Assembly (NCBI RefSeq): GCF_026391055.1
Contig: NZ_JAPLET010000025.1
Location: 1-64,000 of the forward strand
Direction of reading: 5' to 3'
Source: Spirosoma sp.
GTDB lineage: Bacteria; Bacteroidota; Bacteroidia; Cytophagales; Spirosomataceae
DNA: 64,000 bases
Shown here piece by piece: positions 4,399-60,392 of the stretch (position 1 is the first letter of the stretch; each line of letters opens with the position of its first letter). The notes beneath the pieces were generated by a model. It did no database searches. It was not told the DNA's origin and saw only the letters and a program-made list of their open reading frames with translations. Position numbers and translations under genes: made by a program.

Positions 4399-4463
4399 TT
4401 ACACAGAGATACACTAATAAGGAATTACAAAAACTCAATGTATCTCTGCGAATCTCTATGTAA
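4399..4463. repeat. Imperfect inverted repeat of the CACAGAGAT type
   Basis: Arms 4399-4414 (TTACACAGAGATACAC) and 4448-4463 (GCGAATCTCTATGTAA) match at 12 of 16 positions as an inverted repeat. Within the right half the word TCTCT recurs after 10 bases. The same words form the larger element at 17850-17940 and the half element near 20761. It fills the space between the susCD terminator and msrA and is not itself followed by a T-run. Confidence 0.6.
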
Positions 4464-16401: not shown

Positions 16402-16637
16402 CAGGCAGCCATCAACAGTGTACCATTATCGCGGTCAGCAGCGAAAAGTAAAGCCGCCTGGATATCTTCGCGGGTTAACTCAGGAAAGTCATCAATTATT
16501 TCCTCAACGGTCTTTCCTGCACCTAACCACCCTAAAATATCACCGACCGTAATTCGCATTCCTCGTATACAGGGTTTACCACCCCGTTTGCCAGGTTCAA
16601 TCGTAATAATGTTTGTGTACTTCCCTTGATACTGCAT
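16401..16637 (-). CDS. DUF433 antitoxin-like protein
   Basis: 78 residues with the full DUF433 pattern: IITIEPGKRGGKPCIRGMRI, then VGDILGWLGAGKTVEEII, DFPELTREDIQAALLFAAD. The domain is a small helix-turn-helix protein that partners DUF5615 PIN-like proteins. The two genes share one base and must be co-translated. It starts 44 bases after the end of the first Gfo/Idh/MocA gene on the same strand, so it may be read through from the sugar genes or use a promoter in that short gap. Confidence 0.88.
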   Translation of the reverse strand: MQYQGKYTNIITIEPGKRGGKPCIRGMRITVGDILGWLGAGKTVEEIIDDFPELTREDIQAALLFAADRDNGTLLMAA

Positions 16638-16681
16638 GACCTTAGTGCTTATATCTGAATCACTAAATTACGCTTTCACCA

Positions 16682-17827: not shown

Positions 17828-17849
17828 TGATGTAGGGTTAAAGGGTATG

Positions 17850-17940
17850 CCACAGAGATTCACAAAGGCACACGGAGCTGCACGGAGTTTTTATAATTTA
17901 TTCTTTGTGTATCTCTGTGTGTCTGCGTGCATCTCTGTGG
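17850..17940. repeat. Large inverted repeat of the CACAGAGAT type
   Basis: Arms 17850-17882 and 17908-17940 match at 26 of 33 positions as an inverted repeat. Each arm is itself quasi-periodic: in the right arm TCTCTGTG, TCTGCGTG and TCTCTGTG follow at 10-base steps. It almost fills the gap between the two oxidoreductase genes. There is no T-run at either end of the stem, so it is not a standard terminator. Smaller relatives are at 4399-4463 and near 20761. Confidence 0.8.
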
Positions 17941-17950
17941 CCCAATTTCA

Positions 17951-20692: not shown

Positions 20693-20729
20693 AAAAAGGC
20701 CGCGAATCAAGGGATTCGCGGCCTTTTTT
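20693..20729. terminator. Strong bidirectional-looking terminator after the MFS gene
   Basis: Arms 20693-20708 and 20713-20728 pair perfectly (AAAAAGGCCGCGAATC), with an AAGG loop; the plus strand ends in six Ts and the minus strand in five. It can serve both the MFS gene and the convergent WHy-domain gene. Confidence 0.9.
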
Positions 20730-20760
20730 ATACGCCCGCTATGCGGAGAACACCAGGAAG

Positions 20761-20802
20761 TCCTTTGTGCATCTCTGTGTCACAATGCGAATCTCAGTGA
20801 CC
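20761..20802. repeat. Half element of the CACAGAGAT repeat type
   Basis: Reads CTTTGTGCATCTCTGTGT and then GCGAATCTCAGTGACC, which aligns with the right half of the element at 17850-17940. The matching left arm is absent or too degenerate to recognise. It lies between the terminator at 20693 and the end of the WHy-domain gene. Confidence 0.5.
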
Positions 20803-26327: not shown

Positions 26328-27080
26328 TCAGTACCGTATTCCAGCCCAGCCGTATGGCGTTTGCCGGGCGCCTATCCGATCACTGATATGTTGCTTAATC
26401 AGCGCATCATAAGCCGCATCGGTCAACTTCTTGCCTTTCTGCTTCGGCAGTTTCATATCTTCTGGTGTAAGTGCACGAAATGCGACATTAACAGCTTCGA
26501 TCGTTACGTCACCATCATTAACGTCCAGTTCCAGAATAAGCCCGGGGAGGCCGTTCATCCGCTCAGGACCCGCCGAAACGGGGATATCCTGCGCAAACCA
26601 AGCCGTAATTTTTTGTTTTTTGATCGGATCTTCGGTTTCGGCTTTCATGCAGATGTAGCCTGCCACTTCTTTGATCTGATTGCCGATTTTCCAGACGGGG
26701 GCGTGTAGCGAATCGTCAACGATGTAGGTCTTGCCAAGCATCTCGATAATATCCGTTTTTTTATCTTTATCGAAATTACGATATAGATAAAACTCCGATT
26801 TGCGCCACGAATACCCGCCCTCTTCGGGTTCATCACTATTGTAGGTATAAAGGCTTTCGTTCGGGCTAAAGGCCAGTTTCATCTTAATGCCCTTGTTGTC
26901 CTCCTCCCAGTTTTTCCAGGTTTGGGTTTCGCGGTCTTTTTGCTCCTGACTCAAAAACGTAAGCCGATTGGTGATTTTAAGCCAGTGTTCTTTCCGGACA
27001 TAGGTAACCACACCTTCCGATTTCTGGGCCATTGTTACCGAGCTGGTCAACAGGCACAAGAGTATCAATATATTTTTCAT
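26328..27080 (-). CDS. GLPGLI-family protein
   Basis: 250 residues with a signal peptide (MKNILILLCLLTSSVTMAQ) and the name-giving motif GLPGLILELDVNDG near residue 170. Other family blocks are GKTYIVDDSLHAPVWKIGNQ, AGYICMKAETEDP and TAWFAQDIPVSAGPERM. GLPGLI proteins are Bacteroidota-specific exported proteins of unknown biochemical role. They are often encoded next to a TonB-dependent or outer-membrane barrel gene, as here: the barrel gene ends 19 bases upstream on the same strand. The pair is probably one transcription unit and ends at the long hairpin at 26252. Confidence 0.93.
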   Translation of the reverse strand: MKNILILLCLLTSSVTMAQKSEGVVTYVRKEHWLKITNRLTFLSQEQKDRETQTWKNWEEDNKGIKMKLAFSPNESLYTYNSDEPEEGGYSWRKSEFYLYRNFDKDKKTDIIEMLGKTYIVDDSLHAPVWKIGNQIKEVAGYICMKAETEDPIKKQKITAWFAQDIPVSAGPERMNGLPGLILELDVNDGDVTIEAVNVAFRALTPEDMKLPKQKGKKLTDAAYDALIKQHISDRIGARQTPYGWAGIRY

Positions 27081-27099
27081 GATAGAGAGTTAATTAAGA

Positions 27100-34067: not shown

Positions 34068-34169
34068 ATGGATTTATCAACACCTTTGACACTTCTGTTT
34101 TACGCAGTACTCTTAATCTCTGCGTTCATAACGGGTCGCTGGCTAGAGCGCAACGACCGGAAGTATTAA
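34068..34169 (+). CDS. 33-residue predicted membrane peptide
   Basis: Short ORF reading MDLSTPLTLLFYAVLLIS, continuing to GRWLERNDRKY. One hydrophobic helix (about residues 7-22) is followed by a strongly charged tail, as expected for a single-pass membrane peptide with its C-terminus in the cytoplasm. A -7 promoter word lies 25 bases upstream. I do not recognise a family. It could be a small regulatory or complex-assembly peptide, or a chance ORF; the clean membrane-plus-charged-tail layout and the promoter favour a real gene. Confidence 0.5.
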   Translation: MDLSTPLTLLFYAVLLISAFITGRWLERNDRKY

Positions 34170-34172
34170 TTC

Positions 34173-34263
34173 AGTAGTTAGTACTTAGTAGTTAGTGGCT
34201 AGTGACCTGTACACGTACAGCACCAGTCGCTAACGACTAAGCACTAACCACTAACTACACTAA
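34173..34263. repeat. Inverted repeat built of TTAGTnn heptamers
   Basis: The left part has TTAGT at 34178, 34185 and 34192 and CTAGT at 34199, that is, every seven bases. The right part (about 34217-34263) carries the complement (ACTAA words, also near every seven bases). Between them CTGTAC and GTACAG form a short central stem. The gap between the 33-residue ORF and the acyltransferase consists almost wholly of this element. Confidence 0.85.
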
Positions 34264-34265
34264 AC

Positions 34266-34832
34266 ATGCTCAGTGCCCTGACCCGTTGGTTATTTAAAGT
34301 ATGGGGTTGGCGGGTAACAGGACCTATCCCAACTGTACCAAAAGCCATTTGGGTAGTAGCCCCACATAGCACCAACTGGGACTTCCTGGTTGGCCTGGGC
34401 ATTCGCCCCACCATCCATATCTGGATTCAATACCTCGCCAAAAGTTCGTTATTTACCTGGTACTCAGGCTGGTTATTCCGCGTCTTGGGTGGTAAGCCCG
34501 TCTATCGCGACAAGTCACGCAACTTGGTCGATGCAACCGTGAATGTTTTCAATCAAAATGAGCGTCTTCATATCTGCATTGCACCGGAAGGCACACGTAG
34601 TAATGTCGACAAGCTGAAAACCGGTTTTTATTATATCGCCCTCAGTGCGAATGTTCCCCTTATTCTGGTTGGCTTCGATTGGCCCCGCCGACTGGCGATT
34701 TTGAGTGAGCCTCTCTACATCACGGGCGATTACGAAAAAGACATGCTTCCCTTCTACGAATTTTTCTCCCAGGTTCATGGCGTAAAGAAAGACTGGCTGA
34801 CGCGCTGGGAGAGAACGGGCGTAATTGCGTAA
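34266..34832 (+). CDS. Lysophospholipid acyltransferase-family protein
   Basis: 188-residue acyltransferase. The catalytic HX4D motif is HSTNWD (His34, Asp39), and the second motif is APEGTRS (Glu108-Arg111), both standard for glycerol-phosphate acyltransferases. Its small size matches the short Bacteroidota branch, which lacks N-terminal membrane helices beyond one amphipathic segment (LTRWLFKVWGW). It should act at the inner face of the membrane, acylating a lysolipid or lipid precursor; the exact acceptor is not determined. Next gene starts 33 bases later on the same strand. Confidence 0.88.
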   Translation: MLSALTRWLFKVWGWRVTGPIPTVPKAIWVVAPHSTNWDFLVGLGIRPTIHIWIQYLAKSSLFTWYSGWLFRVLGGKPVYRDKSRNLVDATVNVFNQNERLHICIAPEGTRSNVDKLKTGFYYIALSANVPLILVGFDWPRRLAILSEPLYITGDYEKDMLPFYEFFSQVHGVKKDWLTRWERTGVIA

Positions 34833-35831: not shown

Positions 35832-36962
35832 CTAGTTAATAGTCAACTCGGCTACCATGAGCTGCCCTGCCCGCTGGGATGCACCGGGACCGCCCATTTT
35901 TTGCTGCACCTCGGCATAGTCTGCCAACTGCGTATCTCGCCCGACTTCTCCGGGTAAAATACGCTGAAGTTCAGCCGTGATGCGTACGGGCGTCAGATCG
36001 TTTTGAATCAACTCTTTAACGACTTCCCGATTGGCAATCAGGTTTACGAGCGAAATAAACGGAACGGCAATCAAATTTTTGGCGATGGCGTAGCTTATCC
36101 CCGTTGTTTTGTAGCACACCACTTGGGGTATGTTCAACAGGGCCGTTTCGAGGGTAGCGGTGCCAGAGGTAACAAGCGCGGCTGTCGCTATATGCAGTAG
36201 ATCATAAGCAGCGTCGCTCACACAAATTACGTGTGGAAAATCGGCCAGCATACTCCTGTACAGACTATCCGGCAAGTTACTTACTGTGCCCAGCACAAAC
36301 TGATAGCCCGGAAACTGCCGGGTTGTTTCCAGCATGGCTGGCAGAATTGAGGTAATTTCCTGATGCCGACTTCCGGGCAGTAACGCAATAATAGGCTGAT
36401 CCTGTATCCCGTTTTCTACACGAAATGCCGGATTAGGGTGAAAGTCGGCGAGGGCGTCGAGAAGTGGGTTGCCTACATACTCAACTTCATAATCGTATTT
36501 GGCGAAAAATTCCGTTTCGAACGGTAGAATCGTAAACAGCTTGTCGACCGTCGCCTTTATTTTGAGGGCCCGTCGCTGATTCCAAGCCCACACTTTTGGT
36601 GATATATAATAAAATACCCGGATACCGTGCTTTTTGGCAAACCGAGCCATACGTAGATTAAACCCGGCATAATCGATCAAAATCAGGACATCAGGACGAT
36701 TAGCCAGCAGATCAGCCTGACACTCGCGCATAATCCGGCGAATGGTACCCAGGTTTTTTACAACCTCCAGAAACCCCATAAAGGCCATTTCGCGGTAATG
36801 ACGCACCAGAACCGCACCGGCGGCTTCCATCTGCTCACCACCATACGCCCGAAAAACGGGTTCATCACCGGGGGAGCCGCTATCGTACCGACGAATAGCT
36901 TTTATGAGATTGGCGCCGTGCAAATCGCCCGAGCGTTCACCGGCAATGAGGTAATAATTCAT
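35832..36962 (-). CDS. lpxB: Lipid-A-disaccharide synthase
   Basis: Glycosyltransferase that joins UDP-2,3-diacylglucosamine and lipid X to form the lipid A disaccharide. 376 residues. Diagnostic blocks are YYLIAGERSGDLHGANL at the N-terminus, MGFLEVVKNLG, YISPKVWAWNQRR, ILPFETEFFAKYDYEVEYVG, LLPGSRHQEI, and the C-terminal SGTATLETALLNIPQVV followed by VNLIANREVVKELIQ. It acts at the inner face of the cytoplasmic membrane. A queD gene lies upstream on the same strand, across the inverted repeat at 36976-37028. Confidence 0.96.
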   Translation of the reverse strand: MNYYLIAGERSGDLHGANLIKAIRRYDSGSPGDEPVFRAYGGEQMEAAGAVLVRHYREMAFMGFLEVVKNLGTIRRIMRECQADLLANRPDVLILIDYAGFNLRMARFAKKHGIRVFYYISPKVWAWNQRRALKIKATVDKLFTILPFETEFFAKYDYEVEYVGNPLLDALADFHPNPAFRVENGIQDQPIIALLPGSRHQEITSILPAMLETTRQFPGYQFVLGTVSNLPDSLYRSMLADFPHVICVSDAAYDLLHIATAALVTSGTATLETALLNIPQVVCYKTTGISYAIAKNLIAVPFISLVNLIANREVVKELIQNDLTPVRITAELQRILPGEVGRDTQLADYAEVQQKMGGPGASQRAGQLMVAELTIN

Positions 36963-36975
36963 GTATGCTATATGC

Positions 36976-37028
36976 TGTTTGATATAAGATGTATGTCTGA
37001 AGTAAGCCTATACATCCTATATCAAACA
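36976..37028. repeat. Inverted repeat of the TTTGATATAAGATG type
   Basis: Arms 36976-36995 and 37009-37028 match at 18 of 20 positions, with a 13-base loop. The arms use the words GTATG and GATAT repeatedly. It fills the gap between the queD stop and the lpxB start. No T-run follows. Confidence 0.8.
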
Positions 37029-37035
37029 TAAAATC

Positions 37036-37452
37036 TCATTCCCCAAAATAATCCACAAAATTTTTCGGGGTTTCGTAGAGCCGAAGCTGGTGCAGATGCG
37101 CATCGGTGACGGGTTCGAGCGCTCGTTCGAGAATTTTCCATATCTCCATAATGAAGATTTCGCAGCTGGCCATTTTGCCCTGCATGAAATCCACGTCAAG
37201 ATTCAGGTTTTTATGATCTACTTTTTCGATCACTTCCCGGCGGATAATATCACCCAGCACTTTCAAATCAATGACAAACCCGGTATTAGGATCAGGTTCC
37301 CCTTTTACCGTAACGATTAATTCAAAATTGTGCCCATGCCAGTTGATGTTTGCACAGGGTCCAAATACTTCCTTGTTACGCTCTTCTGACCAGGCTGGAT
37401 TATAGAGCCGGTGAGCCGCGTTAAAATGCTCAATTCTGTTAATGTATACCAT
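37036..37452 (-). CDS. queD: 6-carboxytetrahydropterin synthase / PTPS-family enzyme
   Basis: 138-residue member of the PTPS/QueD family. Zinc ligands are His14 (FNAAHRLYN), His39 and His41 (NWHGHNF), and the catalytic Cys33 is present in GPCANIN. DHKNLNLD and ending LYETPKNFVDYF fit. In bacteria this enzyme normally acts in queuosine or 7-deazaguanine synthesis, converting dihydroneopterin triphosphate to carboxytetrahydropterin. No other queuosine gene is adjacent, so a pterin role is possible too. A -7 word lies about 55 bases upstream. Confidence 0.9.
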   Translation of the reverse strand: MVYINRIEHFNAAHRLYNPAWSEERNKEVFGPCANINWHGHNFELIVTVKGEPDPNTGFVIDLKVLGDIIRREVIEKVDHKNLNLDVDFMQGKMASCEIFIMEIWKILERALEPVTDAHLHQLRLYETPKNFVDYFGE

Positions 37453-42384: not shown

Positions 42385-42440
42385 TGAATGATAAAATGAG
42401 TGAATAGTGCCTATCATCTACTCGCTCATTTTATCATTCA
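42385..42440. repeat. Inverted repeat of the TGAATGATAAAATGAGTGA type
   Basis: Core arms 42385-42403 and 42422-42440 match at 18 of 19 positions. ATGA-like words recur inside the arms. It lies in the gap between the DUF5666 protein and the response regulator, with no T-run. Confidence 0.8.
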
Positions 42441-49202: not shown

Positions 49203-49979
49203 ATGAAAACAGACATTACGACCGAAACGCTGCCCCAACTTCTCAATCGATACCGGACCATAACGGAGATACTAACGAACTATGCGTTCAATAACCATAG
49301 CCTGCATACATATCATTCCATTGCCCTCGAAGGCTTCCAGGTATCGTTCCCACAAACGCAGGCGCTATTGACTGATAGCAAGTTACTTCCTGACCTACCC
49401 GCTGCCGATCAGTTTCTGATTATCGATCACCATAAGGCTTTTGAGGAGGTGTTAGCGATGGCTAGCCAGCAGGAGCCTATGAACCGGCTTTTCATCCAAC
49501 GAATAGCGTCAACTTTAATGCGCCAAACGGGCGGTCTGAAGCATTCGCTATTGAGCAGTTTTGACACGAGTAAAGGTGAGTTGCGCATCGATAGCGCTAT
49601 GGCAGGTAGACGGCAATTGGTGGAGGCTCATAAACTACCTGCCGCCCTGGACGCCCTACTCAGAGAAATCAATACCGCAATTGCCTTACTCAAAACTCCG
49701 CGTCAGCTCTATGATCTATCGTTTAAAGCGCACTTTGACCTGCTAACCCTGCATCCATTCGGAGCGGGCAATGGCCTTATGGCGCGGTTACTAATGAGTT
49801 ATATTCAGCATTACCATCAACTGCCGCTCAGCCTGGTTTACGCCGATAGCCGAACCGCTTACTTGAAGGCGCTGGATGCGAGCTGGCAACAGAAAGCACC
49901 CGTACCAATTATCAGTTTTATGCACAGCCAGCTCAGCCGTTTTCTACAGGAGGAAACTAGTAGTAGGAGCGAGAAGTGA
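49203..49979 (+). CDS. Fic-domain protein with an altered active-site motif
   Basis: 258-residue Fic-fold protein. The inhibitory-helix motif of class II Fic proteins is visible at 39-44 (SIALEG, fitting S/T-xxx-E-G/N). The Fic core motif at 184-195 reads HPFGAGNGLMAR. The catalytic His184, Gly and Asn and the last Arg195 are kept, but the metal-binding acidic residue (normally D/E at 188) is Ala and the first Arg is Leu192. Nucleotide-transfer activity may therefore be altered or lost. There is no antitoxin partner. The C-terminal tail TSSRSEK is encoded by repeat-like bases that continue into the downstream inverted repeat. A ribosome-binding-like AAGGAAAC lies before the start. Confidence 0.85.
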   Translation: MKTDITTETLPQLLNRYRTITEILTNYAFNNHSLHTYHSIALEGFQVSFPQTQALLTDSKLLPDLPAADQFLIIDHHKAFEEVLAMASQQEPMNRLFIQRIASTLMRQTGGLKHSLLSSFDTSKGELRIDSAMAGRRQLVEAHKLPAALDALLREINTAIALLKTPRQLYDLSFKAHFDLLTLHPFGAGNGLMARLLMSYIQHYHQLPLSLVYADSRTAYLKALDASWQQKAPVPIISFMHSQLSRFLQEETSSRSEK

Positions 49980-50080
49980 ATAGTTAGGAGGACTGACGCG
50001 TCAATAAAAAAGGAGTAGGGAGTTAGTTGGAAGTGAGTGCCGTAAAGGCCTCCTCGCTCCTAACTCCTTACTCCTATTAC
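49955..50080. repeat. Inverted repeat of GGAGTTAG words, reaching into the Fic gene end
   Basis: Core arms 50011-50026 (AGGAGTAGGGAGTTAG) and 50060-50075 pair at 15 of 16 positions plus one G-T. Related words (TAGTAGGAGCGAGAAG, TAGTTAGGAGGA) continue to the left through the last codons of the Fic gene. It is the gap between two convergent genes. Confidence 0.75.
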
Positions 50081-50086
50081 TTAAAA

Positions 50087-50972: not shown

Positions 50973-51045
50973 TTTTGAATGAGTGATTGAGTGAATGATT
51001 GAATAGTGAATTGGCAAATCAATTCAACCATTCACTCATCCAAAA
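50973..51045. repeat. Inverted repeat of GAATGAGTGA words
   Basis: Left part TTTTGAATGAGTGA then ATGATTGAAT, right part is the complement (TTGAACCATTCACTCATCC-like), with two extra copies of the word on the left. It fills nearly the whole gap between the Tat-exported barrel gene and the DUF1080 gene; its right end is one base before the DUF1080 stop. The word resembles that at 42385. Confidence 0.8.
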
Positions 51046-53136: not shown

Positions 53137-53147
53137 TTCTTGCTTAG

Positions 53148-53225
53148 TTAGTTATTGAGTTAGTAGTAGCAAGCGTCTAGTAGCCAATAACGATTAACTA
53201 TCAACTACTGACCAACAACCAAACT
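53148..53225. repeat. Degenerate inverted repeat of TAGTTAG words
   Basis: The left half has TTAGTTAGTTATTGAG and TTAGTAGTAG; the right half has TAACTATCAACTACTGACC. Complementarity is partial, but the words and layout match the element at 34173-34263. It sits between moeB and panD. Confidence 0.55.
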
Positions 53226-57499: not shown

Positions 57500-57543
57500 T
57501 CCAACCTGCTGTCTACAAAATCGCCGGGTATTTTGCCCCGCTT

Positions 57544-60294: not shown

Positions 60295-60312
60295 CTCGTA
60301 AGGTAGTGATAA

Positions 60313-60381
60313 GTAAACGAAAAGGCCCGTTTAAACGCCATACCTTTGAGGTATGGCGTTTAAACGGGCCTTTTCGTTTAC
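60313..60381. terminator. 32-bp perfect hairpin between convergent genes
   Basis: Arms 60313-60344 and 60350-60381 are complementary at all 32 positions, with a five-base loop (TTTGA). The arms include CCCGTTTAAACG and CTTTTCG-like ends. It has no long T-run outside the stem, but the internal A/T blocks and the place between gldA and the DUF4136 gene fit a bidirectional terminator. Confidence 0.8.
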
Positions 60382-60392
60382 GTTATTACCCT

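Follow-up and report, generated by a model that had tools for sequence, protein, structure and literature searches.

The window analyzed here is a 64,000-nt stretch of a Spirosoma genome of 8 Mb (NCBI RefSeq assembly GCF_026391055.1, contig NZ_JAPLET010000025.1, positions 1 to 64,000). It contains an acyltransferase gene (34266-34832), present in 35 of 36 Spirosoma genomes, and upstream of it a 33-codon open reading frame (ORF; 34068-34169) that ends in GRWLERNDRKY. A Pfam search with this ORF gave no match; it looks like a conserved membrane microprotein, and its end precedes a hairpin in many orthologous loci and at the Fibrella locus L062. Between the ORF stop codon (34169) and the acyltransferase ATG (34266) lies hairpin A, an inverted repeat on the forward strand (34174-34258; arms 34174-34206 and 34226-34258) in which the word TTAGTNN recurs every 7 bases. 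It begins directly past the ORF stop codon and ends eight bases short of the acyltransferase start codon.

An earlier note on this DNA had placed hairpin A among a group of intergenic inverted repeats with arms of imperfectly repeated short words. We read and folded all nine sites that it named, scoring each Watson-Crick pair +1 and any mismatch −1, with a cutoff of 12; this strand-symmetric scheme was chosen to keep RNA wobble from biasing the inverted-repeat test. In the source genome, six of the nine sites reach the cutoff (34173, 20.5; 17850, 21; 42385, 19; 36976, 17; 50973, 17.5; and 49955-50080, 15), and those at 53148, 4399-4463, and 20761 do not.

Hairpin D (reverse strand, 17849-17941; arms 17849-17883 and 17907-17941) carries the word CACAGAGANN about every 10 bases and is flanked by two co-directional GFO/IDH/MocA oxidoreductase genes; in genome G010 it is near-perfect, with 43 pairs. 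Also on the reverse strand, hairpin F (36976-37028; word TGTTTGATATAGGATGTAT) separates a PTPS-like gene (37036-37452) from lpxB (35832-36962), and hairpin G (42385-42440; arms 42385-42407 and 42418-42440), composed of GAATGA/GAGTGA words with a period of 4/8, has a response regulator gene downstream. Hairpin H (50977-51045, reverse strand; core arms 50988-51004 and 51022-51038) is made of GAATGA/GTGA words and scores 17.0 to 19.0 in the three closest genomes. Hairpin I (50011-50075, assigned to neither strand) lies between convergent genes, consists of GGAGTTAG words, and is preceded by an A-run. The claim that none of these elements has a T-run is correct in the usual sense, but the repeat at 49980-50086 starts with an A-run and falls in the class with a T/A run (the run class).

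Among the sites below the cutoff, hairpin B (forward strand, 53143-53220) is TTAGT-like and decayed in the source genome, where its score of 10.5 bears out its description as weaker; it nevertheless scores 26.5 in G010 and 18.5 in G007. Hairpin C (forward strand, 4399-4463; word CACAGAGA) is a shortened copy in the window, which lacks 21 nt present in G010, and scores 36.5 in G007; the best repeat of its gap in the window (14.5) is a different hairpin, closer to the upstream gene. The element near 20761 is indeed half a hairpin, with CTCTGTG words (forward strand, 20757-20801) adjoining a T-run terminator (arms 20693-20708 and 20713-20728). A long hairpin between convergent genes (60313-60381, assigned to neither strand) was not among the sites named. 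In the convergent gap at 57500-57543, G010 has ~107 extra bases, including an inverted repeat scoring 26, which are absent from the window and from G007; this difference is a recent gain or loss. No Rfam family matched at its gathering score anywhere in the window.

Frequency and position of the hairpins

Gaps of 40 to 350 nt on 344 kb of the window's contig were compared with dinucleotide shuffles, using gene calls from a simple ORF script, in which start positions and short genes are approximate. Strong inverted repeats were found in 34 of 112 co-directional gaps (1.4 expected), 17 of 28 convergent gaps (0.3 expected), and 1 of 32 divergent gaps (0.7 expected), and folding-energy z scores below −3 were found in 34, 19, and 0 of the same gaps, respectively. 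Five Spirosoma samples, amounting to 1.14 Mb, gave 119 of 419 co-directional (6.0 expected), 54 of 105 convergent (1.5 expected), and 18 of 94 divergent gaps (3.9 expected), with 5 of 750 coding chunks (2.7 expected). The gene-end hairpins are real and far above chance. The earlier note had said that its proposal would fall if shuffled sequence yielded as many of them, and it did not. The idea that divergent gaps are hairpin-free held in the window's contig and was contradicted by divergent-gap hairpins in G001 and G012.

We distinguished hairpins with and without a T/A run. Our main counts use a strict run rule; an older rule, which checked stem ends only and counted 12 hairpins with an inner T/A run as lacking one, underlies the strict-flank gap counts, the coding-flank stem starts, the hairpin-status concordance, and the samples from other Bacteroidota, and was also in use for the pooled lags, the close-pair comparison, the recurring words, and the downstream C-rich stretch. 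Under the strict rule, the five samples contained no-run hairpins in 92 of 419 co-directional, 36 of 105 convergent, and 16 of 94 divergent gaps, alongside 27 co-directional and 18 convergent run-class hairpins. No-run hairpins were more frequent in convergent gaps, in which the 3′ ends of two genes face each other, than in either other type (P = 0.011 and 0.006), as gene-end elements should be, and their frequencies in co-directional and divergent gaps did not differ significantly over all gaps (22% versus 17%; P = 0.33); with strictly called flanking genes, the difference was marginal (70 of 268 versus 8 of 59; P = 0.043, older run rule). The statement that most such hairpins take up almost their entire gap is only half right: in the five samples the median cover was 57%, and it was at least 60% in 43 of 92.

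Co-directional no-run stems began a median of 6.5 nt past the upstream stop codon (quartiles, 2 to 23), against a median of 16 nt for stems with a T/A run, and their spacing to the next start codon was wide (15 to 121); the stop codon was the closer of the two in 78 of the 92. When 45 nt of coding flank was included, 43 of 91 stems began at −3 to +10 and 20 of 91 extended into the coding end (older run rule). The stems of gaps A and F also end a few bases ahead of the next start codon. Starting so close to the stop codon ties the no-run stems to the upstream gene and suggests that they are 3′-untranslated-region (3′-UTR) elements.

The 5′ arms also have a polarity, with G exceeding C in 66 of the 82 co-directional no-run hairpins in which the two are unequal and C exceeding G in the other 16. 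Since an inverted repeat is identical when read on either strand, this is not a strand effect. Stop codons were rejected as its cause: TGA is enriched, but so are ATG, GAT, and AGT, and TAG is enriched only twofold and TAA not at all.

Conserved places and changing letters

Orthologous gaps were extracted with the neighboring gene as a synteny check. For gap A, presence and period were scored at all 34 syntenic loci and sequence grouping was done on 18 of them; the other sets comprised gaps of 40 to 300 nt, namely, 17 loci for D (leaving out 12 longer than 300 nt and 1 nonsyntenic), 20 for G (leaving out 2 shorter and 8 nonsyntenic), and 23 for F (leaving out 7 shorter). An inverted repeat scoring at least 12 was present at gap A in 33 of the 34 syntenic Spirosoma genomes, and inverted repeats were present at 19 of 20 G, 14 of 17 D, and 17 of 23 F loci, where shuffles predict 0.1 to 0.3 per set. 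At the Fibrella locus L062, a hairpin scoring 34 occupies the gap-A position; the nonsyntenic loci L060 and L064 have none. The element of gap F is absent at 7 of 30 loci, all with fewer than 40 nt between the genes, and is thus dispensable there.

Sorting the loci into groups that do not have three 11-mers in common gave 12 groups for A (18 loci), 7 for D, 10 for G, and 7 for F. A lack of conserved pairing in orthologous gaps, which the earlier note had named as refuting its proposal, is not what gap A shows, even though its 18 grouped loci represent 12 groups that share no sequence. When all window gaps were followed through seven genomes, hairpin-free gaps remained hairpin-free and held their length. 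Among five more distant genomes, 43 genome pairs both had a hairpin at the same gap, compared with 20.2 expected by permutation, and in co-directional gaps alone there were 31 such pairs versus 16.5 expected, a number reached in 0 of 2,000 permutations (older run rule). These hairpins do not align with each other and the stems sit at the stop codon, which favors the proposal that the fold matters more than the sequence.

Rhythm as well as place can be inherited. At P ≤ 0.05, periodicity was found in 34 of the 128 no-run 5′ arms that could be tested, versus 5 of 41 run-class arms; the best lags among the periodic no-run arms were 8 (14 arms) and 7 (10 arms), followed by 10 (3 arms), and in the pooled arms lags 4, 7, 8, and 12 exceeded shuffles and most other lags fell below them. 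Within the window, the periodicity attributed to these arms was confirmed at 34173 (lag 7) and 17850 (lag 10; P = 0.01) but not at 36976, 42385, or 50973 (P = 0.15, 0.63, and 0.19). Orthologues showed lag 7 at gap A (33 arms, match 0.54, z = 18.5; one arm per group, 0.53, z = 9.0), lag 8 at gap G (z = 11.2; 5.0 per group), and lag 10 at gap D (z = 5.3; 3.4 per group). Lag 7 at gap F (z = 5.9) stems from one inherited word and drops to 0.9 per group. The words of gap A vary across species (TTAGTNN, AGTCAAT, GTTTACN, CAGTTAT, and others) within a shared frame, AGTNWWY, whose phase was picked on GT. The rhythm is specific to each locus, with a period of 7 bases at 34173, 8/4 at 42385, and ~10 at 17850, and it outlasts the words. 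The single layout envisaged for all these elements thus does not extend to a common period. Word-sized indels were examined as a sign of slippage; a loose gap penalty gave the alignments many small indels that were spurious.

No second copy of hairpin A was found in its own 8-Mb genome, the next best match being 24 bases long (E = 0.099). Hairpin G has partial relatives, with a 77% match at 303813 (E = 6e-7) and weaker ones on other contigs. Some 10-mers, AATGATTGAA among them, are shared by as many as 8 hairpins, and some words are common to several gaps and species, so word families exist. Nonperiodic hairpins of the GTAGCCNGGACGGCCACGTCCGGGC and GTAGAGACGCAA...TTGCGTCTCTAC types recur at unrelated gaps and displace local hairpins (gaps D and F in L079, L092, L097, L133, and L153; G000 contig C8, 119661-119772), and in gap F of G007 the GTAGAGACGCAA...TTGCGTCTCTAC hairpin is present in tandem copies. 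Inverted repeats of GTGGCTGTTGCAAAAGTC, possibly insertion-sequence ends, recur in the G000, G001, G005, and G018 samples (e.g., L203).

Outside the genus, we sampled 80 kb from each of five other Bacteroidota picked for a matching heptad pattern. Co-directional no-run hairpins occurred in 8 of 25 (G201), 9 of 29 (G068), 8 of 30 (G326), 0 of 26 (G111), and 1 of 31 (G146) gaps (older run rule), and three of the nine in G068 are copies of one dispersed palindrome. In three of the five samples the layout recurs but is built from different words (CGTGAGN, GGATGAC, and GTGATTTA); the other two lack it. AGT was not shown to be a special word of the phylum: the pattern (AGTNNNN)x4AGT is present in 191 of the 296 Bacteroidota genomes examined, and its reversed control is frequent too. 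Many AGT arrays of other genera lie outside strong hairpins. Three loci from other Bacteroidota families (L269, L277, and L278) carry inverted CAGT heptad arrays in which the cores agree between arms and the variable linkers often do not.

How the stems change

Close relatives were compared pairwise in 36 disjoint pairs covering 762 Watson-Crick pairs. Of these, 640 were unchanged, 99 were broken, and 23 had become a different Watson-Crick pair through changes in both arms; in addition, 26 mismatches were repaired between close relatives. By our own arithmetic, ~2.3 two-sided switches would be expected if the sides changed independently (145 of 1,524 sides changed). Transversions made up 8 of the 23 concerted changes, a share like that in unpaired columns (267 transitions, 260 transversions), which favors copying over stepwise change via G-U. 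The gap at 60295-60392 contains several tracts in which G000 and G010 show multibase, compensated differences that affect the two arms together. Arms were perfect in 17 of 92 co-directional no-run hairpins. Between G000 and G010, by our own sorting of the gaps, identity was ~0.84 in hairpin gaps (median of 12) and ~0.94 in others (median of 26, some at 0.41 to 0.73). Three gaps (2723-2815, 16560-16681, and 27033-27099) have identities of 0.70 to 0.73 next to gaps of at least 0.95, and these are possible recombined tracts.

G-T mismatches do not significantly exceed A-C mismatches in no-run stems (103 versus 93; P = 0.52), whereas the T-run control stems showed a clear excess (26:7; P = 0.0013); the four sets of orthologues together have 86 G-T and 72 A-C mismatches. 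The mark of selection on RNA base pairs, greater tolerance of G-U than of A-C on the transcribed strand, was thus not found in the no-run stems, and nothing there shows selection acting on the RNA one base at a time. Such selection should make a stem look like those of the run class; the no-run stems therefore either drift, with some stem only loosely required, or are under no selection at all. That broken pairs outnumber compensated ones, 99 to 23, likewise implies that any upkeep is loose.

The earlier note had offered two causes, slippage with hairpin templating and a structural RNA constraint; both are partly supported and are compatible with each other. For the former, the templating part is upheld by the ~10-fold excess of two-arm changes, a third of them transversions, by the perfect arms, and by the G-T/A-C symmetry, and slippage may be read from the periodicity. 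Place and often rhythm are kept between species while the letters change, suggesting that the fold endures and that errors of DNA copying rewrite its letters.

Possible role and origin of the stems

The literature search found no description of such hairpins in Spirosoma, yet the statement that no named family fits was too strong. The closest known system is the short tandemly repeated repetitive (STRR) sequences of cyanobacteria, described as usually 7-bp, intergenic, hairpin-forming repeats, found between hupS and hupL and near a gene 3′ end, for which a role in transcript stability was suggested (PMC2670836). The Spirosoma elements are likewise intergenic and hairpin-forming; their period is 7 at gaps A and F but 8/4 at G and 10/8 at D. 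STRRs are, however, described as highly repetitive at numerous gaps (PMC2670836), whereas the Spirosoma words are diverse, hairpin A is unique, and, set against the published description of STRRs, position is conserved and sequence is not. In Escherichia coli, Rho-terminated, exonuclease-trimmed transcripts, including those with REP elements, are reported to end in a stable stem downstream of the gene without a strong U-tract (PMC13289151), as the Spirosoma stems would; the account given there describes no quasi-periodic arms, and no C-rich stretch was found downstream of the Spirosoma stems. Template switching is reported to create and maintain hairpins, the copying of one arm from the other explaining perfect stems and multibase compensatory changes (PMC8794818, Monttinen and Loytynoja 2022). 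The excess of concerted two-arm changes (23 of 762) resembles this, although the published cases concern rRNA and microRNA genes (PMC8794818) and the Spirosoma ones concern whole classes of gene ends, with periodic arms. The TAACTGA heptamer repeats of Beggiatoaceae, Cyanobacteria, and five Bacteroidetes are also intergenic, but they are described as one fixed direct word, mostly just upstream of starts and almost never inverted (PMC4679880).

With the E. coli and STRR hairpins as precedents, 3′-end stability is the likeliest role, and the stems probably protect or define mRNA 3′ ends. We consider it about an even call that these are U-less gene-end hairpins acting as a 3′-end barrier, with letters rewritten by slippage and fold-back template switching. 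The stem, transcribed first after the stop codon, would fold into a long, stable structure; termination would occur further downstream, through Rho, and 3′-to-5′ exonucleases would trim back to the stem, so that the upstream message would be protected, and between tandem genes the stem would also divide two cistrons. If its presence alone counted, its letters would be free to vary. Slippage would build arms out of short repeated words, and template switching by fold-back would copy arm onto arm, re-perfecting decayed stems and altering both arms in one event. More tentatively, what a gap inherits may be a fold together with a period of 7, 8/4, or 10 bases rather than a sequence, the hairpins being self-templating RNA elements whose arms template each other, so that the pattern is passed on as all its words are replaced while selection sees only the gene-end stem. 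A Rho gene is found in the genome. The C-rich, G-poor (rut-like) stretch that should follow Rho-trimmed ends was looked for and not found, which weakens the barrier reading, as do the dispensability of the gap F element, the nonsignificant difference between co-directional and divergent gaps, the divergent-gap hairpins of G001 and G012, and the lack of a G-T excess over A-C, unless the stems are too stable for single mismatches to matter. The barrier reading also gives no account of the constantly G-rich 5′ arms.

Several of these points suit the main rival, a purely mutational origin: slippage and template switching would generate periodic-armed palindromes and perfect them, and these would survive as neutral filler in any place downstream of a gene that can accommodate them. 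The equality of G-T and A-C mismatches, the predominance of broken pairs, the hairpins in some divergent gaps, and the dispensability at gap F are all compatible with it, and stems may begin at stop codons only because they are tolerated there. The stems, however, decay quickly, yet nearly every genome retains the gap-A stem, hairpin status is concordant gap by gap, and four neutral-looking hairpin-free gaps remain so across relatives; we therefore regard this rival as possible but the less probable reading. Mobile or dispersed repeats of an STRR, REP, or MITE type that had inserted at the ends of genes would explain the partial relative of hairpin G at 303813, the 10-mers shared among hairpins, and the dispersed nonperiodic hairpins that replace the local word at gaps D and F in some species. 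Near-identical copies, however, are lacking for hairpin A, and an informal look at the alignments revealed no transposase, fixed ends, or target duplications, making insertion unlikely as a general explanation.

Unrecognized U-less, "I-shaped" intrinsic terminators, at which the stem itself would halt RNA polymerase, would fit stems that lie just past stop codons and are commonest in convergent gaps. The no-run class by definition lacks the T-run of an intrinsic terminator, and canonical T-run terminators coexist with it and start further from the stop codon. The no-run stems also lack the G-T excess of T-run stems, and many, as at gaps A and F, lie a few bases ahead of the next tandem start, so we think this improbable. 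Still less credible are inverted arrays of protein-binding sites for a degenerate word such as AGTNWWY, with the hairpin a by-product of sites on two strands. The GT core of gap A is mismatched in 6 to 9% of cases and the linkers in 13 to 19%, although choosing the phase on GT biases the core test, and L269 and L277 have inverted CAGT arrays with differing linkers. In Geobacter metallireducens, tandem 7- to 8-mers paired on opposite strands have been predicted to be sites of a global regulator, their consensus TCTCCGTS[Y] resembling CACAGAGA on the other strand; those are described as fixed consensus families with tens of copies, read as regulator sites (PMC2700814). In Spirosoma, a single genome has different words at its different gaps, and a single gap has different words in different species; several stems of gap A (L007, L025, and L027) pair through the linkers too, and the reversed control is widespread in the phylum as well.

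If the barrier reading is true, position and fold persist at these gene ends while the letters turn over completely, and searches by sequence homology or fixed covariance models would miss this class of elements. The hairpins would then offer a natural bacterial case of the way in which long, perfect stems arise and withstand mutation, and hundreds of replicate loci, together with close relatives, would allow template switching to be measured. They would also be a candidate answer to how mRNA 3′ ends are marked in those Bacteroidota genes that have no T-run terminator.
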